45,697 nt of DNA, from assembly GCA_030680835.1 (NCBI GenBank), contig JAUXUD010000092.1, forward strand, positions 1-45,697. Reading direction: 5' to 3'. This document shows, piece after piece, positions 541 to 38,100 of this stretch. The notes beneath the pieces were generated by a model. It was not told the origin of the DNA and made no database searches. It was given only the letters and a program-made list of their open reading frames with translations. The stretch comes from Bacteroidota bacterium. GTDB lineage: Bacteria > Bacteroidota > Bacteroidia > UKL13-3. The translations under genes were made by a program, and so were the position numbers. The stretch's first letter is position 1. Every line of letters starts with the position of its first letter.

Positions 541-3066
541 ATGAAAAATCAAAACTTACACAATTCGAAAGAATCGCCACAATCCCCTTTTGTGAGTGGT
601 TCAAAAAGTCTTTTCTCCATCCTTACCTTGAAAAAGAAAATGTTCTTTTTCTTGTTACTTTTTATAATTGGATTAAGTTCCACCATGGCACACGTAACAG
701 AAATACGTGTTAACCAGGCACAAAATGGTTCCCTCACCTGGTATCTGCAAACATATCATGGTGTTAATGAATGCGGGCATCAAAATGCAGGATTAACCAT
801 TAATGGAATTAATTATCCGATTGATGGCGAATTTTCAGGAAGTATTGTATCTATCAGTCCAACAATTTTTGCACAGTACTACGCTGTAGAATCATTTGGA
901 CGCAGTAGCTATGCAACTGTACACACTGCATTTTTAGGAACAAACTTAACGGTTGCCCCATACTCTAACAACGTGTGCTGGGCATTTTTAGTAGGTGGGT
1001 CAGGAAATTTCACGCCTCCTCCTCCTCCAACATGTACCACATGTCCAATATTATCCTGGAGCAATACGGTTAGTTTACCAGGCAACAACAATGGTACCGT
1101 TTGTAACCTGACAGATGATTATACAACTGCCAATATAACTGTAAATCATTTATCATGTGCAAGCATTACTGCAAATCATAGATTTAAAGTAATACTGGAT
1201 CCGGCAGGTTCAAATACTGTTTACGGATATTATAATTACTCAAGTGGTATTTCAACCAGTGTTGCTATTACAATTCCTTATGGAACCAGTAACAGCACTC
1301 AGGTATCAGTGGTTGACGACGATTTTCCATGTACCATTACGCATGGTTTATCTATTCCAAATGGGCAGTATTCGGGGGTACAATTGCCATTACCTATAAT
1401 TTCTGCAGGTGGACCCACAACCTTTTGTGCGGGGGGCTCTGTTACATTAACAGCGTCACCGGGCGTCTCCTATACCTGGTCGAATTCAGAAACAACCCAA
1501 TCGATAAATGTCACACAGTCGGGAAATTATACCGTTACTGTATTAAACAGCGGCGGATGCTCAGTAACATCTCTTCCGCTTAGTGTGACTGTTAACCCAA
1601 CACCAACTGCGCAGGTATCTGCTACACCGATTATCTGTTCAGGTGGTAACAATGGAAGTGTAATTGTAACCGGAACAGGTGGTACTACTCCCTATCAATA
1701 TTCTAACGATAATGGAGCCAGTTTCCAGTCGAGTGGAACTTATGGCTCATTGGGCGCCGGAACATATATCAGTATTGTAAAAGGAAGCAATGGCTGTTCA
1801 AGCGCTCCTGTGACCTCAGTGATATTAATTGACAATGTTCCGCCAGTTGTAAATACAAATAACATTACCGTATACTTAAATGCAAGCGGATCAGCAACAA
1901 TTACCAGCGCTCAAATTGACAATGGAAGTACTGATAATTGTTCTATTTCTTCATACAGTTTGAGCAAAACAAGTTTTGATTGTTCAAACACCGGTCCCAA
2001 TTCAGTTACCCTAACAGTTACCGATGCAAATAACAATTCAGCAAACGGCAATGCCATTGTAACGGTAATTGACAATATTGCACCAGTGGTAGTTACTCAA
2101 AATGTATCTGTTACCCTTTTGGGTGGAACTGCTTCAGTTAGCGCCGCTCAAATAAATAACGGATCCAATGATGCATGCGGAATTGCAAGTATCAGTGTTT
2201 CCCCATCTTCATTCAGCTGTGCTAATATTGGTCCAAATGTTGTAACCTTAACAGTTACGGATACAAAAGGTAACACCAATACCGGTACTGCTACAGTAAC
2301 TGTTAATGGAGTAATTCCTTCCTGTGCATTATCAGCAACTGGCAGTGGAACAGTAATTGGAACAACCACAAGCAATGCAGCCGTTAATCAGATGTTTTTA
2401 GGATACGGATATCAAAGCATGACTGTTTCATGTGCTGCTAACGGAGGTGGACCATTCACCTATAGCTGGACAGGTAGTTATTTAAGTGGTTCGGGTTCAA
2501 CTGCAACTTTTAGCCCAACAGCAGGAGGTAATTATACGCTAAGCTGTACGGTAACAAACAGCAATGGTTGTCAAACTACATGTTCGATCAGTATTTGTGT
2601 TATTGATGCCCGCTCAACAGGTGGTTCTGCATCCAATCCAAAAGTTTACTTATGTCATTTACCTCCGGGAAATCCTTCAAATGCTCAAACTTTGAGTATT
2701 AGTATAAACGCTGTACCATCGCATCTTGGACTTCATTCAGGTGACCGTTTGGGAAGCTGTGCACAAAGCTGTGGTTCACAAAAAACCAATTCTACAGTGG
2801 GTGATATTTATACAGTGGGTGATGTAGATTTAATTGTATATCCGAATCCTTCTGCATCTGCTTTCACTTTCCAATTGGAAACCCAAAGCGAAGAACCCGT
2901 ATCCATATCGGTTTACGACCTGAGCGGTAAACTTATCTCTGAACAAAACTTTAAGTCACCTCACGATTTAATGATGACAGGTGATGCACTTGTAAATGGA
3001 ATTTACATCGCTGTAGTTAAGCAAGGCGATTTCAGCAAAAACGTGAAAATTCAGAAGGTTAATTAA
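541..3066 (+). CDS. T9SS-secreted multidomain surface protein (841 aa)
   Basis: This is an exported protein with a type A T9SS C-terminal sorting domain at about residues 760-841 (VYPNPS motif, then YDLSGK, ending NVKIQKVN). The N-terminus has a long 33-residue basic region before the hydrophobic stretch MFFFLLLFIIGLSSTMA, so cleavage is likely near residue 50. A second in-frame ATG at 640 would give a conventional signal peptide. Passenger parts, in order: an unrecognised beta-rich domain (51-157), a proline run, an unrecognised Cys-containing region, an Ig/PKD-like module near 290-345 (SVTLTASPGVSYTWS), a SprB-like repeat near 350-425 (ITVKGSNGC-type ending), two roughly 85-residue HYR-like repeats (TVTDANNNSANG and TVTDTKGNTNTG), another PKD-like module near 600-690, and a conserved CHLPPGNP segment near 705. 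No catalytic motif was seen. A role in adhesion or surface coating is inferred. Its tail is nearly that of the truncated upstream gene. Confidence 0.88.
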   Translation: MKNQNLHNSKESPQSPFVSGSKSLFSILTLKKKMFFFLLLFIIGLSSTMAHVTEIRVNQAQNGSLTWYLQTYHGVNECGHQNAGLTINGINYPIDGEFSGSIVSISPTIFAQYYAVESFGRSSYATVHTAFLGTNLTVAPYSNNVCWAFLVGGSGNFTPPPPPTCTTCPILSWSNTVSLPGNNNGTVCNLTDDYTTANITVNHLSCASITANHRFKVILDPAGSNTVYGYYNYSSGISTSVAITIPYGTSNSTQVSVVDDDFPCTITHGLSIPNGQYSGVQLPLPIISAGGPTTFCAGGSVTLTASPGVSYTWSNSETTQSINVTQSGNYTVTVLNSGGCSVTSLPLSVTVNPTPTAQVSATPIICSGGNNGSVIVTGTGGTTPYQYSNDNGASFQSSGTYGSLGAGTYISIVKGSNGCSSAPVTSVILIDNVPPVVNTNNITVYLNASGSATITSAQIDNGSTDNCSISSYSLSKTSFDCSNTGPNSVTLTVTDANNNSANGNAIVTVIDNIAPVVVTQNVSVTLLGGTASVSAAQINNGSNDACGIASISVSPSSFSCANIGPNVVTLTVTDTKGNTNTGTATVTVNGVIPSCALSATGSGTVIGTTTSNAAVNQMFLGYGYQSMTVSCAANGGGPFTYSWTGSYLSGSGSTATFSPTAGGNYTLSCTVTNSNGCQTTCSISICVIDARSTGGSASNPKVYLCHLPPGNPSNAQTLSISINAVPSHLGLHSGDRLGSCAQSCGSQKTNSTVGDIYTVGDVDLIVYPNPSASAFTFQLETQSEEPVSISVYDLSGKLISEQNFKSPHDLMMTGDALVNGIYIAVVKQGDFSKNVKIQKVN

Positions 3067-3083
3067 ATATTAAATGTGTCATT

Positions 3084-3117
3084 AAAAAAGGGTGGTAAAT
3101 TTTGCCACCCTTTTTTT
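3084..3117. terminator. Bidirectional terminator between convergent genes
   Basis: The stem GGGTGG (3090-3095) pairs with CCACCC (3105-3110) and is flanked by A-run and T-run that extend the pairing. It can terminate the T9SS gene on the plus strand and the TrpF-like gene, which ends at 3159 on the minus strand. Confidence 0.85.
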
Positions 3118-3158: not shown

Positions 3159-3773
3159 TTACCCAACCACTTCAAGAGCTTCAAGCACATTATACAACGC
3201 ATCAAAATCTTTTAATCCCGTTTTTTCTTCTGTGCCTGCCTTCAGGTTTATTGCAAAAGGTTTGAAGGTTTCAATGATCTCTTTTATCTGTTTCGGTTCA
3301 GCCGGTACCGACCAAATTATTTTATGGGTTGAACATATTTTATGCAACCACTCCTTATTTGCCTGAATATCTAAATTTCCGGTAAGAACAAATGCTTCAG
3401 CAAATGGCGAATAGGCATCAAACTCTATTTCAATTGCCGATAAATTTAATTCGCTGCAGTCAATAATTTTCATGATGGGTTTACCGATTAACATCAATTC
3501 ATCAGGTAATATCTGATTGTTTAATGCCACCATGTCCATATTTAACAATTCACTGATTTCAATAATTTCCTGTAAAGTCTGTTTGCCAAATTCTGCCACC
3601 GTTTGGCTGCCGCTGGTCCATTCAATAATTTCTTTTGCTTTAATGGGGGTTATAAAATCTGGACTTGCCGTATCAAAACAGAAACCCATATAATCAATAC
3701 CCGATGCTGCTGCAAAACGTGCATCCGCAAGATGTGTAATTGGACTTAGCTTAAGTTTGGTTAGGTATCGCAT
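3159..3773 (-). CDS. TrpF-like (phosphoribosylanthranilate isomerase fold) protein, likely pseudoenzyme
   Basis: This 204-residue protein can be aligned by eye along its full length to phosphoribosylanthranilate isomerase. KLKLSPITHLADA matches the family start KICGIT..EDA, GIDYMGFCF matches the GADALGFVF strand, and INLKAGTEEKTGLKDFDAL matches the closing DVSSGVE..PGVKD phosphate-binding segment. The residues expected for catalysis are missing. The KICG cysteine is replaced (KLSP), the arginine of the SPRYV loop is replaced (SPDFI), and the general-acid Asp of the LLD strand is replaced (FVLTG). It is therefore probably not an active tryptophan enzyme, and no other trp gene is nearby. The gene follows the DUF2480 gene with only 3 bases between stop and ATG, so the two are likely co-translated. 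A phosphate or nucleotide-ligand binding role is possible but unproven. Confidence 0.72.
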   Translation of the reverse strand: MRYLTKLKLSPITHLADARFAAASGIDYMGFCFDTASPDFITPIKAKEIIEWTSGSQTVAEFGKQTLQEIIEISELLNMDMVALNNQILPDELMLIGKPIMKIIDCSELNLSAIEIEFDAYSPFAEAFVLTGNLDIQANKEWLHKICSTHKIIWSVPAEPKQIKEIIETFKPFAINLKAGTEEKTGLKDFDALYNVLEALEVVG

Positions 3774-3776
3774 GAA

Positions 3777-4283
3777 TTATTTCTTCTTATAAACTGGTAC
3801 ATTACTGCATGCCTCACCATACATAATACTTTTTGCATAAGGCATTAATCTGGCTGTGAGTTCAACGTAGGCAGCGGCCGATATACTTATATCACCACAA
3901 CCTTTTATTATTACCCGGGCATCCTTGTACTTTTCATAATCTATTTTGGCCAATGCTTCATTAAATAAAATAAGATCCAACTGTTCCAGATTTCCAAATA
4001 TAAATCGTTTTACATAAGGTTGAACCGAAACACCCAGTAACATATAGGCCCAAATAGGAATAATGGCATCATTGCTGCAGGTAAATGCTATGTTTTTGCC
4101 TTGATATTGTTTCCAGTTGTGGGTTTTGAGATATTCACGAAAATCCTTTTCCTTGAGCACCAATCCACGAAACAACAGCGGTTCTATATCAAATAAAATC
4201 CTTTCTGCCGAATCATAATAATCTTCCAGGTTTAAGGTAACCAAATTGCTGTTTGCAACTTTATTTTCTATTAAATCTTCCAA
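3777..4283 (-). CDS. DUF2480 family protein
   Basis: This is a 168-residue cytoplasmic protein recognised as DUF2480, a Bacteroidota-restricted family of unknown function. Recognisable family features are LVTLNLEDYY near the start, the FREYLKTHNWKQYQGKNIAFTCSNDAIIP-type core (described here by its conserved KDFRE, WxxYxGK and DAIIPxWAYMLL words), a central VIIKGCGD, and a Cys-containing C-terminus. The start is TTG at 4283. An in-frame stop lies four codons upstream, no ATG exists before the conserved N-terminus, and the family start (M-E-E-I-V-N-K-V-A type) aligns exactly to this TTG. It begins 4 bases after the stop of the upstream lipoprotein and runs straight into the TrpF-like gene, which suggests a three-gene unit. 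Conserved Cys residues in CSND and KGCGD could bind metal, but this is speculation. Confidence 0.85.
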   Translation of the reverse strand: MEDLIENKVANSNLVTLNLEDYYDSAERILFDIEPLLFRGLVLKEKDFREYLKTHNWKQYQGKNIAFTCSNDAIIPIWAYMLLGVSVQPYVKRFIFGNLEQLDLILFNEALAKIDYEKYKDARVIIKGCGDISISAAAYVELTARLMPYAKSIMYGEACSNVPVYKKK

Positions 4284-4287
4284 ATTT

Positions 4288-4677
4288 TTATTTTAAATAT
4301 ACATTCCTGTTTACGGTACGTTTTCCTAAAATCTGAACCAATGCAGTATCAGTTTTAAAAGCCGATTGCGACCGGATATAATAATTGCCCTGCAATAAAT
4401 AACCAAAATCGGCTTCGGCTGATGCGCTTGTACTTTTTAAATAAAGTAAATACAGGTTTCTTTTAATATCATCGTAGTTGGTGTATAAGAATACATCTGT
4501 GCCATATAATTTAGTGCCACTAAAATAATCGTAGGTAGTAACAATCAAACGGCCATTAAAGGCAGAACTGTCTGATGTGATAATGGTGTTTGCAGGGGTT
4601 ACTTTACTGGCCTCATTTTTTGAGCAGGAACTCAATACACAAACTGAAATAATAAATGCCAAATAATTTGTTTTCAT
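4288..4677 (-). CDS. Small putative lipoprotein
   Basis: This 129-residue protein has a lipoprotein signal peptide: MKTN, then a hydrophobic segment ending VLSSC, so lipidation at Cys18 is expected. The mature part is polar and beta-rich, with no enzymatic motif; segments such as RLIVTTYDYFSGTKLYGTDV suggest a carboxypeptidase-regulatory-like or prealbumin-like beta sandwich, only loosely. I do not recognise a named family. It sits between pyk and the DUF2480 gene on the same strand and ends 4 bases before the DUF2480 TTG start. The 43-bp gap to pyk upstream shows no terminator, so it may belong to the pyk transcript. Confidence 0.75.
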   Translation of the reverse strand: MKTNYLAFIISVCVLSSCSKNEASKVTPANTIITSDSSAFNGRLIVTTYDYFSGTKLYGTDVFLYTNYDDIKRNLYLLYLKSTSASAEADFGYLLQGNYYIRSQSAFKTDTALVQILGKRTVNRNVYLK

Positions 4678-4720: not shown

Positions 4721-6157
4721 TCATTTTATTTCACTTATTTTAATGGTATTGGTTCTTAACCTGTCGGTAATTGGCATGCTTGCCGTGTTAATCACCAAAT
4801 CGCCCGCTTTCAGGAAACCCATTTTATGCATAGAATCATTAATATCCAAAATAGACTGATCGGTGCTTTCAAAGCCTCTGTATAAAAAGCCCCGTACGCC
4901 CCAAACCAAACTCAGGGTTTTTAATAAACGGGGATTGGTTGTAAAAATAAAAATAGCCGCTTTAGGCCGATAGGCTGCCAGGCGATAAGCCGAATAACCC
5001 GAAAAAGTCATACCCACTACCGCAGCTGCTTTCAAATGGTCGGAAATTAAAACAGCGGTATACAATATTTCATCCGATAAAAATGTGGGTGAGTGTTCCT
5101 GCGGACGTTTGCCTTTAAAATAAGGTGCATTGGTTTTTTGCTCAACTTCGGCAATTGTTTTTTGCATGGCCCGTACACACAATTTAGGGTATGCACCTAC
5201 CGAAGTTTCAGCGCTAAGCATCACCGCATCGGCACCATCCATAACCGCATTGGCCACATCATTTACTTCAGCACGGGTTGGAACCGCACTCACAATCATG
5301 CTTTCCATCATTTGCGTGGCAATAATTACAGGTTTGGCAGCCTCAATACACTTTTTTACAATCATTTTCTGCAAAACAGGTACCTGTTCCATCGGCATTT
5401 CAACGCCCAAATCACCGCGTGCCACCATAATACCATCTGCAATTTCTATAATTTTGTCAATATTTTCAATGGCTTCAGGTTTTTCAATTTTTGCAATTAT
5501 CCTGGGTTTCCATTCATTGAGATCAATAATATTTTTGATAAAAATCAAATCGGCCTCATTTCTAACAAAACTTAATGCAATCCATTCTACTTTTTGTTCC
5601 AAACCAAATTGCAGGTCATCCAAGTCCTTTTGGGTCATACTGGGAATGGTCATTTTGGTTTCAGGTAAATTAAAACCCTTTTTATTGCTCAGCCAACCTC
5701 CCACAACAATTTCAGCAGTTATCAGATTCATTCGATTGGTTTTTAACACCTTAAGTTCCAGTTTGCCATCATCCAGCAATATCCGTTCTCCTGGCATTAC
5801 ATCTTTGGGCAGGTTTTCAAAATTTACATAAATTTTTTCGGGTGAACCCAGGCACTTTTCTGTAGTTACTAAAATGGTATTCCCGGCAACCAGTTCAATC
5901 CTGCCATTTTCCATCTCTCCTACACGCAATTTTGGTCCCTGCAAATCGAGTAACATACAAACATGTGTGCCCAGGTCTGCGTTTACTTTGTGTATATTAT
6001 CTATAACAAGCTGATGATCGGCATAGGTGCCGTGCGAAAAATTGAGCCGGCATACATCCACTCCCTCTCTTATTATTGCGGTTAAATTTTCGTAACTGCT
6101 TGTTGCCGGGCCAATCGTGGCAATAATCTTGGTCCTGTTAAACTTAATCTCGCTCAT
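4721..6157 (-). CDS. pyk: Pyruvate kinase
   Basis: Catalyses phosphoenolpyruvate plus ADP to pyruvate plus ATP, the last step of glycolysis, in the cytoplasm. The N-terminus NRTKIIATIGPAT and RLNFSHG are the canonical nucleotide/substrate region. The barrel carries the IAKIEKPE lysine motif, the metal-binding VARGDLGVEMP and the ATQMMESM signature, followed by DAVMLSAETSVGAYP. The C-terminal alpha/beta domain ends in a TIKISEIK tail. Length (478 aa) is normal. I chose ATG 6157 (MSEIKFNRTK) over the ATG four codons upstream, which would overlap the preceding gene. With this start the gap to the IPExxxVDY gene is 4 bases, so the two are one operon. The same pairing of pyk with an IPExxxVDY gene near acpP-fabF-rnc is, as I recall, common in Bacteroidota. 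Confidence 0.97.
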   Translation of the reverse strand: MSEIKFNRTKIIATIGPATSSYENLTAIIREGVDVCRLNFSHGTYADHQLVIDNIHKVNADLGTHVCMLLDLQGPKLRVGEMENGRIELVAGNTILVTTEKCLGSPEKIYVNFENLPKDVMPGERILLDDGKLELKVLKTNRMNLITAEIVVGGWLSNKKGFNLPETKMTIPSMTQKDLDDLQFGLEQKVEWIALSFVRNEADLIFIKNIIDLNEWKPRIIAKIEKPEAIENIDKIIEIADGIMVARGDLGVEMPMEQVPVLQKMIVKKCIEAAKPVIIATQMMESMIVSAVPTRAEVNDVANAVMDGADAVMLSAETSVGAYPKLCVRAMQKTIAEVEQKTNAPYFKGKRPQEHSPTFLSDEILYTAVLISDHLKAAAVVGMTFSGYSAYRLAAYRPKAAIFIFTTNPRLLKTLSLVWGVRGFLYRGFESTDQSILDINDSMHKMGFLKAGDLVINTASMPITDRLRTNTIKISEIK

Positions 6158-6161
6158 ATCA

Positions 6162-6581
6162 CTATACAATCCAGCTAATTTTGGATTTTAATTTTTCGTT
6201 GTCAATAAGGGCAACCAGGTCTATGCCTGAGGCACTTCTGCATTGGGTCATAAATTTTTGCAACTCAAAAAACTCAATTCCCCCTCTAATAGTCACTAAA
6301 TAGTCAAATTGTTTTAAATCGTTAAAAAGGCACAATCCAAATTCCTTGTTTGCCAGTAAAGAATAATTCAGGTGGTTTTCTTCATCATACCATGCAAACT
6401 TAGAAAAACTGGTATTTGCCTGCGGATTATAATCCGGGAGTTTAAAATCGGCAACGCGTTCCAGATTAAGATTTGCACTTTGATTCAGGTAAAATCCAAT
6501 TTTGCTTGCTTTTTGACTTGAAACCATGCCCAAAAGCAGGAAGTCTAAATCGGATTCTACTTCAAGTTGCTGTTTTTTCAA
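6162..6581 (-). CDS. IPExxxVDY family protein
   Basis: This small cytoplasmic protein (139 aa from the chosen start) belongs to a Bacteroidota family of unknown function that usually neighbours pyk, rnc and fabF. Recognisable parts are the opening QQLEVESDLDFLLLGMVSS, the LNQSANLNLERVADF segment, FAWYDEENHLNYSLLANK, and FDYLVTIRGG near the end. The frame has no ATG before the conserved region. Possible starts are TTG at 6626 (154 aa) or TTG at 6581 (MKKQQLEVES). The latter fits the usual family start better and is given here. The first in-frame ATG (6527) would remove conserved sequence. It is divergent from acpP and 4 bases upstream of pyk. Confidence 0.75.
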   Translation of the reverse strand: MKKQQLEVESDLDFLLLGMVSSQKASKIGFYLNQSANLNLERVADFKLPDYNPQANTSFSKFAWYDEENHLNYSLLANKEFGLCLFNDLKQFDYLVTIRGGIEFFELQKFMTQCRSASGIDLVALIDNEKLKSKISWIV

Positions 6582-6684
6582 GCTACAAAGGAATAAAAAT
6601 TGTGGCAGTTTTGTGTAATTCCGCAATAATTTAATAAAACATTGTCAGTTTAATAGGGGAATAAATGCTTTAGAAATTCAAAAC

Positions 6685-6716
6685 TTGCATTTTAATAGCA
6701 AAAAGTAGTTTATTTG
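6685..6716 (+). promoter_or_regulatory. Probable promoter of acpP-fabF-rnc
   Basis: A TTG at 6685-6687 is followed after 21 bases by TTTATTTG at 6709-6716, one mismatch from the Bacteroidota -7 consensus TAnnTTTG. It lies 23 bases before the acpP start, in the only gap upstream of the operon. Confidence 0.45.
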
Positions 6717-6739
6717 CAGACTATTAAACATTAATAAAG

Positions 6740-6979
6740 ATGTCAGATATCAAAGGAAGAGTAAGAGCCATTATTATGGACAAACTTGGAGTTGAAGAAA
6801 GTGAAATCAACGACGAAGCAAGTTTTACAAACGATTTAGGTGCCGATTCATTAGACACTGTGGAATTGATTATGGAATTCGAAAAAGAATTCAACATTGC
6901 AATACCAGATGATCAAGCTGAAAAGATTGGTACAGTTGGACAGGCAATTTCTTACATCGAACAAAACGTAAAAAGCTAA
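6740..6979 (+). CDS. acpP: Acyl carrier protein
   Basis: Carries growing acyl chains on a 4'-phosphopantetheine arm during type II fatty-acid synthesis in the cytoplasm. The attachment site is Ser37 within [12 protein letters not shown]. At 79 residues it is acidic and four-helical, the standard ACP length and composition. It is the first gene of a plus-strand operon with fabF (22 bp downstream) and rnc, the classical arrangement in many bacteria. Confidence 0.98.
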
Positions 6980-7001
6980 TTAAGCATTAAATCAATTGCT
7001 A

Positions 7002-8252
7002 ATGCTTTCCCGCAGAGTTGTAGTAACAGGACTTGGTGCCCTAACACCAATCGGAAACACGTTACAGGCGTATTGGGATGGGTTGTCAAATGGGGTTAGT
7101 GGCTCAGCGCTTACTACCCAATTTGATACATCCAAATTTAAAACCCAGTTTTCCTGCGAAGTTAAAAATTTCGACCCAACCGATTTTATTGACAGAAAAG
7201 AAGCCCGGCGAATGGACCGTTTCACCCAGTTTGCTATTGTTAGCACGGATGAAGCCGTAAAAGACGCCGGATTAAACGATTCTGTGAATAAAGACCGGGT
7301 AGGGGTAATTTGGGGCACCGGTATTGGCGGTTTACATACCTTTTTAAATGAGGTAACCGCCTTTGTAAAGGGCGATGGAACACCGCGCTTTAGTCCGTTT
7401 TTTATCCCCATGATGATTGGAGATATCTCCGCGGGTTTAATCTCTATCCGCCACGGATACAGAGGTCCCAACTTTATTACCATGGCCGCATGTGCCTCAT
7501 CAACCAATGCCATTGCCGATGCTTTTAACTATATCCGCTTAAATAAAGCGGATGTTATCGTTACCGGTGGATCAGAGGCTTGCGTAAATGAAGCCGCCAT
7601 TGGTGGTTTTAATTCGATGAAAGCATTAAGCGAAAGAAATGATTCTCCGGAAACAGCCAGCAGACCGTTTGATTTAGATCGCGACGGCTTTGTTTTGGGT
7701 GAAGGCTCCGGGGCACTCATTTTGGAAGAGCTTGAGCATGCCAAAGCCCGGGGTGCAAAAATTTACGCAGAAGTAATGGGTTGCGGTCTTTCGGCCGATG
7801 CGTACCACATGACAGCTCCCCATCCTGATGGGCTGGGTGCCATAAACGTGATGAAATACGCTTTGGAAGATGCCGGCATGAAACCCGAAGACATTGATTA
7901 TATTAATGTTCACGGTACCTCAACACCTTTAGGCGATCCGCAGGAAATTAAGGCTATACTGAATGTATTTGGTGAACATGCCTTTAAGTTGAATATAAGT
8001 TCCACAAAATCAATGACCGGCCACTTATTGGGGGGCGCTGGTGCCATTGAAACCATTGCCTGTATTTTGGCAATTCACAAGGGGATTATTCCGCCAACCA
8101 TCAACCATTTTACCGATGATCCCGCGTTTGATCCGCGTTTGAACCTCACTTTTAATAAAGCGCAACACCGCGAAGTAAATGCTGCTTTGAGCAATACTTT
8201 TGGATTTGGCGGGCATAACGCTTCGGTGATTCTCAAAAAATTTGTTGAATAG
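7002..8252 (+). CDS. fabF: 3-oxoacyl-ACP synthase II
   Basis: Condenses malonyl-ACP with acyl-ACP to elongate fatty acids. The thiolase-fold catalytic triad is present: Cys at about residue 164 in TMAACASSTNA, His near 303 in NVHGTSTPLGDP, and Lys/His in SSTKSMTGHLLGGAGAIE near 336-341. The C-terminal NTFGFGGHNASVIL glycine motif is also intact. Length is 416 aa from ATG 7002 (MLSRRVVVTGLG). An in-frame TTG two codons upstream is possible but unnecessary. The gene lies between acpP and rnc, and its TAG is separated from the rnc start by only two bases, so translation of rnc is probably coupled. Confidence 0.98.
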   Translation: MLSRRVVVTGLGALTPIGNTLQAYWDGLSNGVSGSALTTQFDTSKFKTQFSCEVKNFDPTDFIDRKEARRMDRFTQFAIVSTDEAVKDAGLNDSVNKDRVGVIWGTGIGGLHTFLNEVTAFVKGDGTPRFSPFFIPMMIGDISAGLISIRHGYRGPNFITMAACASSTNAIADAFNYIRLNKADVIVTGGSEACVNEAAIGGFNSMKALSERNDSPETASRPFDLDRDGFVLGEGSGALILEELEHAKARGAKIYAEVMGCGLSADAYHMTAPHPDGLGAINVMKYALEDAGMKPEDIDYINVHGTSTPLGDPQEIKAILNVFGEHAFKLNISSTKSMTGHLLGGAGAIETIACILAIHKGIIPPTINHFTDDPAFDPRLNLTFNKAQHREVNAALSNTFGFGGHNASVILKKFVE

Positions 8253-28318: not shown

Positions 28319-31300
28319 TTAATTTACAAATAAGGTAACAGAAAAAATCTGGCTGGGTGAAATAAACTGCATCAGGTATTGACCTTCGCTAAGTGATCCT
28401 ACTTCAAGCTCAATCAGCTTTTGGCCCATTTCCTTTTTTCCCATTGCATTTGTATACACTGTTTTTCCAAGTAAGTCGGTAATCAATATGGTTTCATTAC
28501 CTAACAAAGCTTTATCCAGTTCTATATATAATTTCTCACCTCTTAATGGATTCGGATATACTTTTATATTGTTTTCCTTATTTATTTTTTTGATCCCCAC
28601 GTTGGGCAATGTAAAAAAACTTGACAGGGCAAATGAATCCGTTAAATAAACCGGACCCGAACCCGAGGTATTGGCTTCAAAAACGGCAATATAATACCGG
28701 GTATTGGGTGTTAAATTTGAAACTCTTATTGAGTCGTTATTTGCATAGGAAACAATCCTCGAACCATCAGCCAAAGAATCGCCTGAACCGAATACCAAAG
28801 AAGAAGCATAAAGTTTGCCCTGAACTGGTAATGCTGAAATATTTACATCTTTTTTCATTACCACCAGGCGGTTTTGTCCATCTCCTTTTGTCCATTTTAC
28901 ACGTACCGAATCTTTGGTTATTTTTGTAAATACAATACTTTTGGATGGAAGTACCGGAGGATTCACATCATTCTCGGTAGTTACATTTCCCCTTACAAAA
29001 CCAGATGCCTGATAATTGGTTGTATAGCTGTTTCCATTGTATTCCAATACCGCAATATGATATGTTGTATTTGAGTTCAACCCATTTAATGTAAATTGAT
29101 TTCCGGTTCCTATATATACAACTCTTTCATTGGCTGAAAGGTAGGATGAGTTCCCGTTAAAAGTATTATCTGTAGTATATGTTTCACCATCAGCCGGCAA
29201 AGTCACAACTGCTGCCCCTTCGCTGGCAACAACAATTCTGCCTGATCCATTTCCGTTTACCCAATTGATTTGAGTGCTTTGTTTGGTTGTATTGCTAAAG
29301 GTAACTGCTGAACTACCACTTGTAGGCTCAGTTGCCATACTTAACATTTGCCTGCTGGCTGCAGGAGCACCTGCAGCAAGTACACGCGAAAACAATCCGG
29401 TACCATTATATTCATAAACTTTAAAATAATAAGTAACGCCACCTTTTAAATTGGTAACCAGTACTGAATCTCCTGTTCCATCATAAGTAACAAAATTTGA
29501 AGCTCCAAGATCTGTGCCGGTGCCAAAATCAGCCCCACCATAATATTGGGTGCTGTCCGATGGAATTTGATTTACAGCGGCGGCTTCCCTTCCAACCAGA
29601 TACCTTTTGGTTCCATTCCCATTTGTCCATTTAACAACCATTTGCGATACCCGAACATCCGCAAATGTAATATTTGAAGCTGCAACTGTAGGTGGATTAT
29701 AGCCCATAATTGTCGTAGCGTTTCCGGTTGCAGGGTTTAAAGTAAGATAATTTGTGAATGATGCATACCCGTTAAAAGTAAAAACAGAAATATGGTAAGT
29801 GGTACCGAAGTTTAATCCTGATAAAACAAATGTTGAATCTGTCCCATTATATACCACATAATTACTCCCTATATTATTTCCAGAACCATATGTTTCATTT
29901 GCAGTATAAATCTGCCCATTGATTGGGAAACTATCAACTGCGCTTGACTCTTTTGCAAGCACAATACAACGGCTGCCATTTCCTTTGTTAAAATGCACCC
30001 GCATGGAAGTTGGCATCAACTGGCTAAAACTTACTGACGAAGCCTGAGTACCCGGCGTACTTACTGTTAGGTTAATTACTGAAAAATTGCTTTTACCCAG
30101 TGCATTATCAAGGGTATAATTTCCACCTAAAACCAGGCTATTTTCAATCTGGGATATCGAAGTAACTTGTCCATCTGAAAGTTTTACAGGAAAATTTATT
30201 TCCTGTCCGCTTGCAGTATTATAACAGGCAAAACCTGAAGCCTGAGTTGTGAATATATTTCCACCCACAAACAAAAGGCCATTATCAGCATGTAAACTCT
30301 GTACACTTCCCTGTATGGGTGCCTGCCAGCTGGCAACAGTGGCATTGCCCGAATCTACCGCCGCTAATGATGTTCTCGACTGTCCGTTTATTGTTGAAAA
30401 ATAACCTCCGACAATAATATTCGAACCTGAGGCAACGGCTGCATTAATGGTAGAATCTGCATTTACAGTCCAACTGCGCAATGCTCCGTTATTGGAAAGT
30501 TCAAAAGAGGCCATGCGTGATTTTGATACAGCTCCAACTGCAGTAAATTCGCCCATTGCGTATAATTGTGTTTGGTTCAGTAATAATTTGGAAACAGGTG
30601 CATTTATATTTGGATTCCAGCTTTGCAGAGTTCCTGTGGTAGCATTTACCATCGCCAGGTTATTTCTTACTGTTGAACCGAAATATCCAAAACTTCCGGC
30701 AAGGTACAGATTGGAACCGGCCAATACTGCATCCGAAATGTATCCATCACACTCAACGTCAAATGAGGTGGGCGTACCATCAATGGTATCAATTAGTGCC
30801 AATCCTTGTCTGAATTGCTGATTTATTGATTGGAAGTTTCCACCAACCAGTATTTCTGTTCCTATTGCTTTCATCACTTTTACCGGACCATCAATACTCA
30901 CAGGCCATGATAATTGATTGCCTGTTGTATAATCAAAGGCTGCCAGATTAAATACACTCTTGCCACCAAAACTGCTGAAATCTCCTGCGGCAAATATGGT
31001 ATCCCCCAGAAATAAAGTAGCACCCACCGGACCATTAACCAATGGAATCAATGATTGTGAAAGTGCTGAAGATATGCCGATACCGGCAAAATAATGCCTG
31101 GTATCAAAACCTATACTATTAAAAGTTCCGCCCACAAAAACCAAACCACTGTTTACTTTTAAATCTGTAACTTCTGCGTCGAGCCCGGGATCAAAAACAT
31201 CAACTATTCCGGCATAGATATTAACGGATGCAAGATTATTTCTAATCTGCGTTCCCACTTGCGAAAAACTGCCTCCGATATATACACTGTTTAAGTTTAC

Positions 31301-32128
31301 TGCGATATCATTTACAGTACCGGTAACATTCGCCTGCCAGCTTCTTACAGCCGAAGTACTTAAATTAACGGAGCCTATATTTTTTCTATAGATACCTCCC
31401 AGTGAATCGAAGCTACCTCCGGCAAAAAGCAAAGAATCTTTTACAGCCAATGCCTTGATGCTGCCATTTACCGCAATGTTTAAAGGCAGTAAAACATTTG
31501 AGCTGCTATAAGCCGCCAATGAGTTACGCGATGTTGCCGAAATAATGCCAAACAAACCTCCTACGTATAAATTTCCATTTGCCACAGCCAGAGCCGAAAC
31601 CTGACCATCAGGATTTGGAGCAAATGAGGATAAAGTATTTGTTGTTATGTCAATGGCTGCAAGCCCAAGTCTCATTTGAGTATTAACATTACTAAAATTA
31701 CCGGCTGCATATAAATTATTTCCATTGATCGCCAATTGTTTAATTTCCCCGTTAAAATTAAACTGAAATGAATTATCCAGGGTTAATGAAGATGAAAGGC
31801 GTATAACAGATTGCAGTACATTTCCATTGACGGAAAACCTTCCGGCAATATAAATCCTCCCTGAGTTATCTCTCACCATGTCGTTTACAGTACCCCGCAA
31901 TTTTACGGGCAGGCTCACTTTATTACCGGTAGCCAGGCTAAATGCGGCGAATGAACCGGTTGTTGGACCTGCATACATAAACTCCCCGCCTATGTACAAT
32001 TTATTGTTGATGCGAACACTTGAATTTACAGGACCATCTGTTTCCCAAAATTCGTTCACAATATTTTGGGCTTTACTTTGCATCAAAGTACAAAATATCG
32101 AAGCACTCAGTATTATAAGTTTTTTCAT
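28319..32128 (-). CDS. T9SS-secreted protein: beta-propeller repeats plus four Fn3-like modules (about 1269 aa)
   Basis: Signal peptide MKKLIILSASIFCTLMQSKAQ supports ATG 32128; the longer frame to 32170 adds 14 unlikely residues. Residues 20-690 are repeated YVGGxF/LFAGGSF-type units resembling delta-60 (DUF5122) propeller repeats. Four Fn3-like modules start near 703, 816, 939 and 1059, each with a W-x-x-GNG and a YHIAVxEYNG segment. A type A T9SS sorting domain occupies about 1185-1269 (VYPNPLRGEKLYIEL, then ITDLLGKTVY). No catalytic motif was seen. Its architecture is that of the upstream 2049-aa protein without the SBBP and LamG parts, indicating gene duplication. A hairpin lies between the two genes. 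Confidence 0.88.
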   Translation of the reverse strand: MKKLIILSASIFCTLMQSKAQNIVNEFWETDGPVNSSVRINNKLYIGGEFMYAGPTTGSFAAFSLATGNKVSLPVKLRGTVNDMVRDNSGRIYIAGRFSVNGNVLQSVIRLSSSLTLDNSFQFNFNGEIKQLAINGNNLYAAGNFSNVNTQMRLGLAAIDITTNTLSSFAPNPDGQVSALAVANGNLYVGGLFGIISATSRNSLAAYSSSNVLLPLNIAVNGSIKALAVKDSLLFAGGSFDSLGGIYRKNIGSVNLSTSAVRSWQANVTGTVNDIAVNLNSVYIGGSFSQVGTQIRNNLASVNIYAGIVDVFDPGLDAEVTDLKVNSGLVFVGGTFNSIGFDTRHYFAGIGISSALSQSLIPLVNGPVGATLFLGDTIFAAGDFSSFGGKSVFNLAAFDYTTGNQLSWPVSIDGPVKVMKAIGTEILVGGNFQSINQQFRQGLALIDTIDGTPTSFDVECDGYISDAVLAGSNLYLAGSFGYFGSTVRNNLAMVNATTGTLQSWNPNINAPVSKLLLNQTQLYAMGEFTAVGAVSKSRMASFELSNNGALRSWTVNADSTINAAVASGSNIIVGGYFSTINGQSRTSLAAVDSGNATVASWQAPIQGSVQSLHADNGLLFVGGNIFTTQASGFACYNTASGQEINFPVKLSDGQVTSISQIENSLVLGGNYTLDNALGKSNFSVINLTVSTPGTQASSVSFSQLMPTSMRVHFNKGNGSRCIVLAKESSAVDSFPINGQIYTANETYGSGNNIGSNYVVYNGTDSTFVLSGLNFGTTYHISVFTFNGYASFTNYLTLNPATGNATTIMGYNPPTVAASNITFADVRVSQMVVKWTNGNGTKRYLVGREAAAVNQIPSDSTQYYGGADFGTGTDLGASNFVTYDGTGDSVLVTNLKGGVTYYFKVYEYNGTGLFSRVLAAGAPAASRQMLSMATEPTSGSSAVTFSNTTKQSTQINWVNGNGSGRIVVASEGAAVVTLPADGETYTTDNTFNGNSSYLSANERVVYIGTGNQFTLNGLNSNTTYHIAVLEYNGNSYTTNYQASGFVRGNVTTENDVNPPVLPSKSIVFTKITKDSVRVKWTKGDGQNRLVVMKKDVNISALPVQGKLYASSLVFGSGDSLADGSRIVSYANNDSIRVSNLTPNTRYYIAVFEANTSGSGPVYLTDSFALSSFFTLPNVGIKKINKENNIKVYPNPLRGEKLYIELDKALLGNETILITDLLGKTVYTNAMGKKEMGQKLIELEVGSLSEGQYLMQFISPSQIFSVTLFVN

Positions 32129-32153
32129 AGCTATTAAATAAAATGTGATAAAT

Positions 32154-32178
32154 CCGGGACTGCAACGCACAGTCCCGG
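32154..32178. other. Intercistronic hairpin between the two giant T9SS genes
   Basis: CCGGGACTG (32154-32162) and CAGTCCCGG (32170-32178) form a perfect 9-bp GC-rich stem with a 7-base loop. It lies 9 bases after the stop of the 2049-aa gene and 25 bp before the next start on the minus strand. The minus-strand sequence after it lacks a T-run, so attenuation or mRNA end protection is more likely than full termination. Confidence 0.6.
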
Positions 32179-32187
32179 TATAATTTT

Positions 32188-35100
32188 TTATTTCGAAATA
32201 ATCAATTTATGAGTTGAAGTTTGCCCACCTTTTGTTACCAGTAATACGTAGTAACCACTTTGAATTTCAGCGATATTAAATGTTTTAACCAAGGCTCCGT
32301 TTTTATACCATTTTGCCGGTTCAACATATACAGATTTTCCCGAAATATCTGTAATAGCAAAACTTATTTCACCTTCCACTTCATTTTCTATTTCTAAATT
32401 TATCAGGTCAGAGCCTGGATTTGGCCATAGAACACCGGTTTTCTTATTTAAAGTAATTCCACCTGTTTCATCTTCTCTTGGCGGACTGGATAATGCTGAA
32501 GTAGCATTCATGATATCCTGAATTTGCACAGCAGTTAAGGCCCGTTTATAAATTCTCACATCATCAATTCCTCCATTCATGTTGTAATAGCTTGTAAAAA
32601 TAGAACCTATTGTAGAACCCTGCGCACCAATTGTATAACGGCGATTGCTGAGATCAAAGGTTGAATTAGTCCATGCTGAATTTGTATTAGCGATGTTCCC
32701 ATTATAAAATACCTTTGTATTTACTCCATTTTCATAAGTTAAGGCAACATGTACCCAATTTGCAAGTGGAGCATAGGTGTAATTGGGTGCAACAGCCACT
32801 CCTATTGGAGTGCCGGTATTATCATAAACAAAACCAGAGATACCTTGATCTTTATCGAGACTTACATTAAAAGACAATCCATCCGTGATATCCGTTGAGA
32901 TCAAAGCCCTGTCTACATAATTAGCCGTACCGGTAAAACTTGCTATATTCACCCAACCCATCACAGTTAATTGACTCAGGTTGTTTAAAGCAGAATTTGA
33001 AGGTATTGTAAAATCAACCCTTCCGGCACCATTAAACTGATATGCGCTGCCTGAGGTGGTGTTTCTGTCGGTAATAGAAGTTACCGTATTAGCCCCACCT
33101 GGTGATACAATGGTTCCATTATATCCGTTGCCGCTAAAATCATTGGCATTGCCGTTAAATCTATACCATGCAACCAAATCAACCGAAGGATCCGTATTAT
33201 AGGTTGCACCGATATTATGTACAAATACATCCCAATCGCCACCGGTAGAAGAAGGTGCAATTCTGGCTTTTACATCAAAGCCACCGAAATTGGCAGTACC
33301 ATTAAAATATCCGGTTATGTATGAATTATTAGCTGTTATGGCAGCTATGCCACGTGCGGCATCATCCAAAGGTCCTCCATATTTTATTGCAACATTCAGT
33401 AAGCCGTTGGAGGTATAGATTGCAGTAAAAATATCAAGATTTCCGGATGAAGTTAACGATAGTGCATCAAATGAAGCGGTACCACCAAATGAACCCACCA
33501 CAAAAATATCACCATTTGTTCCAATTCCTACTCCACCTGCTGCATCCTGAGCAAGTCCGCCTTGCTTTTTAGCCCATTGAACCGCACCTGCCGCACCGGT
33601 AATTTTTATAATAAATCCGTCGGTGATACCTCCTGAAGTAAGAGTATTGGTTCCAAAAGTTACGCTATTGCTAAATGCCCCTACAATATATACCTGGTTG
33701 TTTGCATCCACCGCAATACCATAACCCTGGTCATCGCCCGCGCTTCCGTATGCATTTGCAAACTGCACCACACCGGAGCTATTGTATTTTACAATGGCAA
33801 TATCTGCCATTGCATTATAGGTTGTAGTTACTGAACCGAATGTTGATGCTCCTTTAATTTCTCCGGTTACAAAAACATTGCTACTAAGATCGGTGGCCAC
33901 ACCAAAAGCAAAATCATATCCGGTACTTCCTCCTTTGTTTGCCCATTGCAGCGCACCACTGGAATTGTATTTTGCTACGAGAAAATCAGATTGACCATAA
34001 GATGTTAAGCTCGTAGAGGAGCCCGAAAAGCTAATTGTTCCATTAAAATATCCTGCAAGTAAAATATTCCCTGTTGCATCAATTGTTAAGCTATTTCCCA
34101 CATCCTGACCAGTTCCTCCAATTCTGTTTACCCATTGTAAATTTCCGCTGCTATTATATTTTGCTATAAAAATATCATCAGAGCCGGCTGAAATAACTGA
34201 ACTTGAACCAAAAGTAGCAGTTGAGCGGAATGACCCGGTTATATATGGATTCCCGGATGCATCAACGGCCACTGAGGATGCTGCCTCATCATCTGTACTC
34301 CCCGCACTTACAACCCATAAAAGGTCTCCGGTAGAATTATATTTTGAGAGGAAAATATCATTCCCTGCACCCGTTATTTCTGTTAATCCCCAATTTGAAT
34401 TTCCTTTAAATGTTCCGGCTACATATACGTTTCCGGATCCATCTACTGCAACACCACCTGCTGCATCCCTGTCAACACCCCCTGCGGTACGTGGCCAGTT
34501 TGGCGGTACCGTTTTGGCTATATATGTAGCTGCATTTAATGTTAAATAAGCATATTCCTGTAAACTGGTTCCATTATTAAATACTGAGTTAAACTCGTAA
34601 ATTGTGAAATAATAATTGGTATAGGCATTTAAACCTGTTATTAAAGCATTATTACCATTACCACTATAAACCACCTTATTGCCAGATCCAAGGTCTGTGG
34701 CTGTACTAAAATTTGAGTTTGCAGGATAATTAACATTTACTGCAGGGCTCCAGTTTACAAAACCTGCCTGCCGGGCAACCACCATCCTGTAATTTCCATT
34801 TCCCGATACCCAGCTTAATTTAAGTGCTGAATTTGATTCGATGGAAGTTATGTTGCTTGCATTAGTGGAAGGAGGTTGAATAGCAGGGTCGGTTTTATTA
34901 TAGCCAAAACCAACGGGGCTGTTCAGGTAATTGGCCGAAGTTGGTATTCCCGTGAGTTCATTGTATTCAACAACCACATAGGTATAAAATGTATTTGCCA
35001 ATAAGCCCGAAACGATGGCAAAATTAGCTGTTCCATTATAAACTACACGGCCTGAACCTAAATATGCAGCATTTAAGTATATAGGTATCGATCCGGGGTT

Positions 35101-38100
35101 AGGACTATATGAGCTAAAATTAGAGTTGGCAACATAAGGCAAACCATCAAAAGCATTCACATAATTCAAATTGGTTATTGCTCCCGGAATAGCTATCACA
35201 AGACGCTTGTTTCCATTTCCCGTCTGCTGCCAGTTTACCTTGGTAATACTCGAACCTAAATTTTGAAAAGTAAGATTTGATGCAGCCAATGTTGGACTCG
35301 CAGCCATCGCAATCGTGGATGCATTGCCGGTTGCAGGGCTGGTGGTTCGATACCTGAAAAGTCCGGTATTGGTATTGTATTCAAATACTGCGAAATAGTA
35401 ATTGGCACCTGATATCAGATTGGACACGGTAACACTTGTTCCGCTGCCTGTATAAACTGAAAAATTTCCATTGCCAAAATTATAACCAAAGCCTAAGGAG
35501 GCATTGGGAGCATAGTATCCATTATTGGCCGGCAAGGCATTAACGGGTGAGCCTAATTTTGCAATAACCAAACATTGGTTTCCATTTCCTCTCGTCCAGT
35601 TTACTTGCATGCTATTGGTGCCAATATTCGAAAAATTAACATTGCTGGCAGATACGGTTGGTGTAGAGTAATCGGCAGTGGAAGCCGAACCACTTAGATA
35701 GTTTGTTGCGTAGGCGGTATAAGCACCTGTTCCGTTATATTCAACAATCCGGAAATAGAAAAGTGAATTGGCAAACAAATTGGTAAGGTTAAAGGAAGTA
35801 CCCATGCCATCATAAACTACATAAGCACCACCAATATTGGAACCATAACCATAGGCTGAAGAGGCATAATAAGAATTTAAATCTGTTGGATTCGTAGTAA
35901 CCGGAGAACCATAACGAGCCAGTACAATTCTACGGCTTCCATTTCCTGCATTAAAGTTTAATGTCATCGAACCCGTGGTAATAGCAGAAAAAGTGAGACT
36001 GTTTGCTGTTATTGTTGGAGCCAGAAGCGGTGCATAATAAACAGGGGCTAAATTATTAAAAGTAGTTCCAGCATAATTAATATCTGCATAAAAAGATCCG
36101 CCCATAAAATACCAATTTCCACTGGATGAAATTGAATTTATATATGAAGCAGGATTATTGGCTGAACTTGTATACATATTAAAAAAAGAAATATTGTCAA
36201 TTTGCCCGTTTAATAATGACGTTCTAAAAAGTCCGTAACGATTTGTAAAATATACAGCATTATCTGTTACGGGTTTATAAATTGCAGAAGGTGGCAATTG
36301 AGAACCGGCCCAGCTATTTGTTTGACTCCTTAAAATCAGGTTTCCATAGGTTGCATTTAAAACGGCAAGTCCGCCATTTGTTGAAGCATTGGAAGCATAA
36401 TTTATTGTGTAAGAAGGATTATAAACAGGGGTACCAAAGCCGTAAGGGAAATTTCCACCAATTGCTATTTGTGAATAATTTATTTGTGTAATATCATTCA
36501 CTTCTACCACATCGCTTGAATTTACAACCGGGCAGTTAAATGATGGAACTACACTTCCGGTTCCATTTGCATAGTTTAAAACCGCAATTTTGTTTCGTGG
36601 GCTTGTAAAACGTCCTCCAACATATAAATAACCATTAATTGATTTAATTACATTAACCGCACGAATATCACCAACCCCTGAATAATTTAAGTTTGCATTA
36701 AATTGTGTGTTAATTTCATAATAATTTCCGGGACCATAATAAGATAACTTAACTAAAAAATTTCTGAAATGCTGCGTGAATGGGAAATAAGGGGAAGAAA
36801 CAGAGCGGAAATCACCCCCCACAAAAATCACAGATCCTGCGGTTGTAATACATCTCACAGTATTGTTAAAGTTGGCTCCAATGCTTGTATTTATCTGACC
36901 CAAACCGTTCACTGTAACAAAACGACCTTTACTGTTATAGTTTACCAAAGTAAATGATCCTCCAATAAATATGTTTCCTCCGGATGCATGAATGGCAAAA
37001 ACTTCTCCATTTTGAATATTTGGATTAAAAGCTGTTGGTAAGCCTGTTGATATATCAATTGCTGCAGCGCGATTACGTGAATATGCTAATATACTCGAGA
37101 ATGAACCACCGGCTAAAATATTTGTACCGCTTTGCAAAAATACTTTTGGCACTCCATTTGGACTGGGTGAAATTGCAGGTATCAAAACAGGAGCAGTAAA
37201 AGCTAATGAAAAACCAGCAAAGCGTTTAATTGTGTTATTTCCGGCGATTCCGCCAAAATTACCTCCAACCATTAAATAATTACTGCTTCCCACTGCAACA
37301 TTCAATGATTGTACACTTATGGGATTTACACCATCACTGGTTGGATTTGGATTCCAGGTACTAAGCTGACCTGCAGCTATATTTATCATGGCCAAACCTA
37401 CCCGGTTTAAATACGGATTGGTTCCACTCCTTGCCAGAGTATAGTACCCACCAGCAAATATATTTCCATTGTAATATGCCAGTGCTGAAACATTCCCGTT
37501 AAAACCAATATTTAAACCATTAACAGTCCCGGATAATGAAATTGCCCCAAAATTGTTTCTAGTCAAACCGCCAACTATATATATGTTGCTCCCGCCAAAA
37601 TAAATGATATTATTTACAATTAGCAAATCATTTATCGAGGCATAATTTGGGTTTGTTGGATAAGCCGAACTTCTGATAGTTGGATTCCAAAAAGTATTTA
37701 AAAGTCCATTGTTCGCTAAATCATAACTTGCTATAGCCTTATTTGGCCCACTGGATGCAATTATCGAACCTCCAACATAAAGGGTTGTACCATTAATTTC
37801 GGCATCATTAATACTAGCAGCCGGAAATTGTATGTTCCATGTATTATCAACCGTATTATTGCTTAAGTTGATTCTCAATCCGCCAAAACTGCCAAAAACA
37901 TATGCCTTATCATTATAAATAACAATTTTGTTTACTGTTCCGGGTGCCGAAATATTCATCGCATTTAAGGTAAGATCCGGATTTAATCTGGCAATTCTTA
38001 TTCTGCTTTGCCCACCAACAGATGTAAATGTACCCCCAATTAAATAACCATAGGTTGCACTGTAACAAATAGTATTTACAGATGCTCCGGTTCCCCCGAT

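Follow-up and report, generated by a model that had tools for sequence, protein, structure and literature searches.

In the window, by which we mean the whole stretch of 45,697 nucleotides analysed here, five genes point in the same direction, in the order IPExxxVDY family protein, pyruvate kinase, lipoprotein-like protein, DUF2480 protein and a 204-aa TrpF-like protein (Table 1). The last of these belongs to a divergent TrpF-like family, which we name TRPFL. Its gene lies three bases behind the DUF2480 gene (3774–3776), as the earlier note had stated, and from this spacing translational coupling of the two genes is plausible. The hairpin in Table 1 is placed between TRPFL and a convergent gene (541–3066), and the scan of the window gave two terminator-like sites against 3.5 expected from shuffled sequences, which is not above chance; promoter-like sites numbered 20 against 14.6 expected, again not clearly above chance. 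A fabF-like gene is divergent from the IPExxxVDY and pyruvate kinase genes (window 6162–8252), and counterparts of all three recur near TRPFL in relatives. Elsewhere in the window (28319–38337), two very long repeat-unit proteins of 1283 and 2049 aa are encoded, both secreted-like and with a C-terminal sorting-like tail as judged by eye.

Table 1. Coordinates of genes, codons and the hairpin discussed in the text, numbered along the window
Feature	Position	Strand	Basis
TRPFL, 204-aa TrpF-derived (beta-alpha)8 barrel lacking the TrpF active site	3159–3773	minus	ORF, PF00697, model, alignment
DUF2480 protein, 168 aa, TTG start, conserved C69, C129, C159	3777–4283	minus	ORF, PF10652
Short protein without a Pfam match, lipoprotein-like start (by eye)	4288–4677	minus	upstream, counterpart in relatives
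Pyruvate kinase	4721–6169	minus	same direction as TRPFL
IPExxxVDY family protein	6162–6626	minus	first in same-direction row
Hairpin, terminator-like, 15 pairs, flanked by A and T runs	3084–3116	plus, as listed by the scan	consensus match only
Ser10 codon, position of the TrpF catalytic Cys	3744–3746	minus	C in 40/40 TrpF, 0/88 TRPFL
Thr131 codon, position of the TrpF catalytic Asp (beta6)	3381–3383	minus	D in 40/40 TrpF, 3/88 TRPFL
Asp34 codon, gained acid just past strand beta2	3672–3674	minus	D in 74/88 TRPFL, 0/40 TrpF
Glu61 codon, gained acid near C-terminal end of beta3	3591–3593	minus	E in 75/88 TRPFL, 0/40 TrpF

Fold and active-site columns of TRPFL

The 204-aa protein matches the Pfam profile PF00697 (PRAI) at 28.7 bits, above the cut-off of 22.7, and a Pfam scan up to an E-value of 1 returned PRAI alone, with no HisA/HisF match. 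Against the NCBIfam TrpF equivalog the best score was 49.9 (cut-off 215), a threshold that one motif-bearing TrpF (L119, 178.8) also fails to reach. An AlphaFold2 model, computed from the protein together with 59 aligned sequences (56 TRPFL and 3 TrpF), has a mean pLDDT of 94.2 and shows a complete barrel in which eight strands alternate with eight helices. When this model was compared with the PDB by Foldseek, the top 11 chains were all TrpF; VIA-align 2 placed 11 TrpF entries, bifunctional ones included, at Z 19.0–22.2, followed by human CutC at 16.6. Both programs thus rank TrpF first, and the TrpF fold proposed earlier is borne out by structure prediction.

To compare the active sites, we used an alignment of 129 rows, composed of 40 TrpF and 89 divergent sequences, with identical rows merged and two copies of the window (L001 and L192) left out; one divergent row of 175 aa (L063), a weak match and a stray in the tree, was excluded, leaving 88 TRPFL. 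Only three of the 40 TrpF rows are Bacteroidia TrpF. In the TrpF of Thermotoga maritima the active-site columns correspond to C7, R36, H83, D126 and D178, of which C7 and D126 are catalytic and the other three belong to the substrate site. Each of these five positions is occupied in 40/40 TrpF and both phosphate-loop glycines are invariant there, counts that for Cys and Gly are partly by construction, since the TrpF rows were selected by a Cys at or next to its column and by the two adjacent glycines of the beta7 loop; Arg, His and both Asp residues were not among the selection criteria. In TRPFL the same residues are found in 0/88 (Cys), 8/88 (Arg), 0/88 (His), 3/88 (catalytic Asp) and 1/88 (second Asp) rows, and the two glycines in 2/88 and 6/88. 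No TRPFL row keeps more than one of the five residues: 12 rows have a single one and the other 76 have none.

In the 204-aa protein itself, the cysteine of the KICG motif is replaced by Ser10, the arginine of the SPRYV-type motif by Asp39 and the aspartate of the LLD-type motif by Thr131, the three losses that had been noticed on first reading. The His column holds Asn85, the second Asp Asn176, and the SGG phosphate glycines Val156-Pro157. Nor have the catalytic residues simply shifted, the Cys being absent from its column in every divergent row, and the losses recur throughout the relatives. From these replacements we infer that TrpF activity has been lost. As far as sequence can tell, the term pseudoenzyme is therefore right with respect to TrpF activity, while leaving room for some other enzymatic activity, and TRPFL is by its aligned residues a family distinct from TrpF.

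Besides the two acids listed in Table 1, TRPFL has acquired Glu48 on alpha2 (76/88 rows against 1/40 in TrpF) and Cys32 (66/88 against 0/40). By eye, Glu61 is present in 12 and Asp34 in 7 of 13 further TRPFL sequences outside the alignment. At the beta8 loop, E182 and G186 are kept in 87/88 TRPFL as in 40/40 TrpF, and because of this part of the anion site may be retained. Mean pairwise identity among 52 TRPFL representatives is 47% in the segment from beta1 to beta3, 19% over the middle segment and 30% over the last one, compared to 60%, 46% and 44% for the same segments among 20 TrpF representatives. In 37 of 40 close TRPFL pairs, which are not independent of one another, dN/dS lies between 0.038 and 0.238, the other three being saturated, and no stop codon was found inside any match in a search of 98 genomes. 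TRPFL is thus under purifying selection, with its constraint displaced towards the N-terminal portion of the barrel. One genus of the window's family (g14) carries short TRPFL of 154–163 aa in all five of its genomes (L052, L056, L057, L059 and L061), which retain the opening strands and the final strand-helix, while the middle of the barrel is missing.

Distribution of TRPFL and the tryptophan genes

TRPFL was found in 56/59 genomes of the window's family. Two of the three genomes in which it is missing (G006 and G045; the third is G048) also lack DUF2480, as if the locus had fallen in an assembly gap. Among the 39 other genomes of the class it was read in six (G059, G071, G073, G074, G095 and G096), and 13 further TRPFL loci lie in other families of the class. 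A profile scan of genome contigs, for which 80 loci were kept of 119 relatives, gave TRPFL in 70, including records from Cytophagales, Saprospiraceae, Chitinophagales and Sphingobacteriaceae; many of these assemblies also belong to the 98-genome set, and counts from the two are therefore not independent of each other. A phylum scan with profile A1 matched 287/395 genomes, a figure that we do not take as the frequency of TRPFL because the profile also catches true TrpF. We picked 20 extra loci from the matches listed in that scan, of which 13 proved to be TRPFL, the further loci already mentioned, and five TrpF with adjoining TrpB and TrpC genes; at the remaining two (L242 and L255) the frame choice yielded neither, though the scan had matched there. 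The family thus spans several orders of Bacteroidota, sometimes alongside real TrpF, and is present in a cultured strain, Cytophaga aurantiaca DSM 3654 (L139).

In a tree of 85 rows, a branch supported by an SH-aLRT value of 100 sets 52 of the 53 TRPFL apart; the remaining row is the excluded L063, which sits on a very long branch and is not counted as a sure member. The tree also contains twelve Bacteroidia loci that are not part of the alignment, among which L228 duplicates L064. The tree is of a quick type, with SH-aLRT as its sole support and five long end branches, and it does not settle where TRPFL attaches among TrpF. On this point we rely on the signature DAR..W..G, whose R19 and W52 are found in 88/88 TRPFL and 37/40 TrpF rows and are absent from the three Bacteroidia TrpF of the alignment. 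As TRPFL and the Balneola-type TrpF have this signature in common, it suggests that TRPFL descended from the Balneolaceae/Rhodothermales subtype.

The window's genome is 99.84% complete and contains a single PF00697 match, the 204-aa protein; a separate intact trpF was searched for in this genome and none was found. TrpA gave no match there either, and the remaining 58 family genomes yielded nothing beyond short partial TrpA matches, two above the cut-off and none full-length. TrpC was found in 0/59 genomes of the family, the window's own included, some of these assemblies being incomplete, and in 14/39 genomes of the class outside it. With no TrpA or TrpC in the genome and no TrpC in the family, TRPFL serves no tryptophan pathway here. 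Two genomes that do have TrpC (G071 and G059) encode both proteins, TRPFL and a true TrpF, at separate places, the G059 copy being very divergent. Together with the pathway-free family, this coexistence indicates that TRPFL neither requires nor replaces the pathway. In agreement with the first reading, TRPFL does not lie in a trp operon in the window, nor does it in any of the loci counted; its neighbours in the window are DUF2480, pyruvate kinase and other genes. TRPFL probably does some job other than tryptophan synthesis, since selection keeps it without the TrpF active site even in bacteria free of tryptophan genes. In three loci a kynureninase-type gene lies 3 to 5 kb from TRPFL (L095:11988–13268, L109:13358–14623 and L110:13335–14600); the first protein is a kynureninase by NCBIfam and the other two are similar by eye.

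The DUF2480 neighbour and the suf genes

The 168-aa neighbour matches PF10652 (DUF2480) at 240.9 bits, the cut-off being 25. DUF2480 occurs in 91/98 genomes and has cysteines at three places, in 39/41, 41/41 and 41/41 rows. A PDB search for its fold gave no relative close enough for a fold class (best Foldseek E 0.045, best Z 4.6), and our literature search found no publications on DUF2480 or PF10652. In 20 of 34 DUF2480 loci (34 other families), a gene of SufE, SufT or SufS type is encoded on the same strand no more than five genes upstream, and in 18 of those loci the SufT type is directly upstream; these calls come from a Pfam scan of one representative per cluster. No suf genes were found upstream of DUF2480 in six loci of the window's own family. 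The window's genome does have a suf row, in the order B-C-D-S-E-T, on another contig and without DUF2480 behind it; as the single DUF2480 match of this genome is the one in the window, DUF2480 is not part of that row. Based on gene order and the three conserved cysteines, we read DUF2480 most readily as a protein associated with suf, which possibly binds metal or sulfur, and as having come to lie beside TRPFL in one lineage.

DUF2480 lies near TRPFL in 30/56 loci of the window's family (flanks read over 1.5 or 3 kb), in five of its 14 genera (g1, g5, g6, g7 and g10). Of 29 genome-contig loci in which both genes are within 750 bases of each other, 19 show a spacing of –4 to +20 bases, with start codons chosen by a rule of our own. 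Outside the family no DUF2480 was seen near TRPFL in six class loci, in 13 further loci, or in 24 TRPFL loci among L118–L151. The pairing is real but local to the window's family. A general partnership of DUF2480 and TRPFL was looked for outside the family and was not seen. Furthermore, the genes surrounding the two are syntenic as well in the family loci, so common descent of the gene order may suffice to explain the pairing and a shared job is not implied.

In other lineages the gene next to TRPFL is MGMT-like, trmB, MgtC or a permease of the FtsX type, the last of which it closely follows in six loci. The 80 genome-contig loci contained no SufB, SufD, SufE or SufT; their SufS and SufC matches are wider homologues, for instance a PvdN/SufS-like enzyme (scanned in L072). 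This PvdN/SufS-type PLP enzyme, convergent to TRPFL at L072:8662–9948 and at 21 other loci, occurs near TRPFL with or without DUF2480 and has a twin-arginine start by eye, the L072 protein being the one scanned.

Possible roles of TRPFL and known systems

Taking these results together, we think it rather likely that TRPFL is a TrpF paralogue without isomerase ability that has been repurposed, most probably to bind a small ligand or another protein as its partner. Following the loss of phosphoribosylanthranilate isomerase activity, the working surface would have been transferred to the N-terminal strands, from beta1 to beta3, together with the beta8 loop. This part would have gained and kept residues of its own, while the region that once held the phosphate glycines and the catalytic Asp would have drifted, to the point of going missing in some lineages, and the repurposed barrel would now bind its ligand or partner. 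In the window's lineage we further infer that TRPFL is probably on one transcript with pyruvate kinase and DUF2480. The earlier note had suggested a new binding or regulatory role, possibly shared with DUF2480; such a role fits a lost site in a kept fold, but the sharing is a hypothesis at most, the pairing having been found in five genera of one family.

One point that speaks against a pure binding role is where the gained acids lie, close to the C-terminal ends of strands beta2 and beta3, which would suit a new catalysis equally well. The retained E182 and G186, which may preserve part of an anion site, and the presence of Asp34 in no more than 7 of the 13 further sequences also weigh against the preferred reading. 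TIM-barrel enzymes have their active sites at the C-terminal end of the barrel strands, and TIM barrels often change reaction. The main rival to the binding reading is accordingly a new enzyme in which Asp34 and Glu61, on beta2 and beta3, have replaced the Cys/Asp pair. The two acids are conserved on adjoining strands, and Glu61 returns in nearly all of the further sequences; Asp34, however, returns in about half of them, the short forms of the g14 genus retain the N-terminal motif without much of the barrel, and TRPFL has no constant operon partner that would hint at a pathway. We regard this alternative as possible, though clearly the less likely of the two.

A functional pair of TRPFL and DUF2480, for example as an accessory of Fe–S cluster assembly or delivery, appears doubtful. 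The close spacing within the family, the position of DUF2480 behind suf genes in more than half of the loci from other families and its near-invariant cysteines are what one would expect of such a pair, but it is difficult to reconcile with the lack of DUF2480 at all TRPFL loci read outside the family, the missing Suf genes around TRPFL, the unrelated genes, such as the FtsX-type permease, behind which other lineages place TRPFL, and the surrounding synteny, for which descent may account. The more specific form of this idea, in which TRPFL is a working partner of the three-cysteine DUF2480 and both are accessory factors of suf Fe–S assembly or its regulation, is slightly more doubtful still; if true, the fold of a tryptophan enzyme would now serve Fe–S cluster assembly or its regulation.

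That the 204-aa protein could still be the TrpF of its genome, with shifted catalytic residues, is very improbable: although it is the only PRAI match there and scores above the Pfam cut-off, the missing TrpC and TrpA leave no pathway for it, and on these missing genes together with the loss of all five columns we reject the reading. Decay of a TrpF pseudogene, to which the fast-evolving middle segment might point, is the least credible of all and is rejected on dN/dS values well under 1, intact frames and presence in 56/59 family genomes.

Our preferred reading of TRPFL as a repurposed, most likely binding, barrel bears on annotation. Pfam PRAI matches 48/60 rows of alignment A2, and 3 of the 60 are true TrpF; a widespread Bacteroidota group is therefore labelled PRAI though TrpF activity is not to be expected of it, and automatic pathway calls may score TRPFL as a tryptophan gene. 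The family also offers a clear natural case of a TIM barrel in which the constraint has changed sides, and it includes short relatives. For DUF2480, gene order and conserved cysteines tie the family to the suf system, and both families become testable.

Finally, we compared the locus with known systems. Among the matches listed we found no published TrpF pseudoenzyme family of the TRPFL kind. TRPFL resembles TrpF (PF00697), and in particular the Balneolaceae/Rhodothermales subtype, in the whole fold of its model and in R19, W52, E182 and G186; it differs in lacking the catalytic Cys/Asp, the three substrate-site residues (Arg, His, second Asp) and the glycines of the phosphate loop, in its new D34, E61, E48 and C32, and in lying outside trp operons in the loci counted. 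The DUF2480 neighbour is a clear member of PF10652, but the window copy stands apart from the suf genes that accompany the family in 20/34 loci elsewhere. A parallel is provided by TSB-like of eudicots, a paralogue of tryptophan synthase beta that is reported to be noncatalytic and to activate a tryptophan synthase partner (PMC12727527). TSB-like and TRPFL are alike in being paralogues of tryptophan enzymes that have lost key residues and are kept for another role, whereas TSB-like has a tryptophan synthase partner and the TRPFL genome of the window has neither TrpA nor TrpC.
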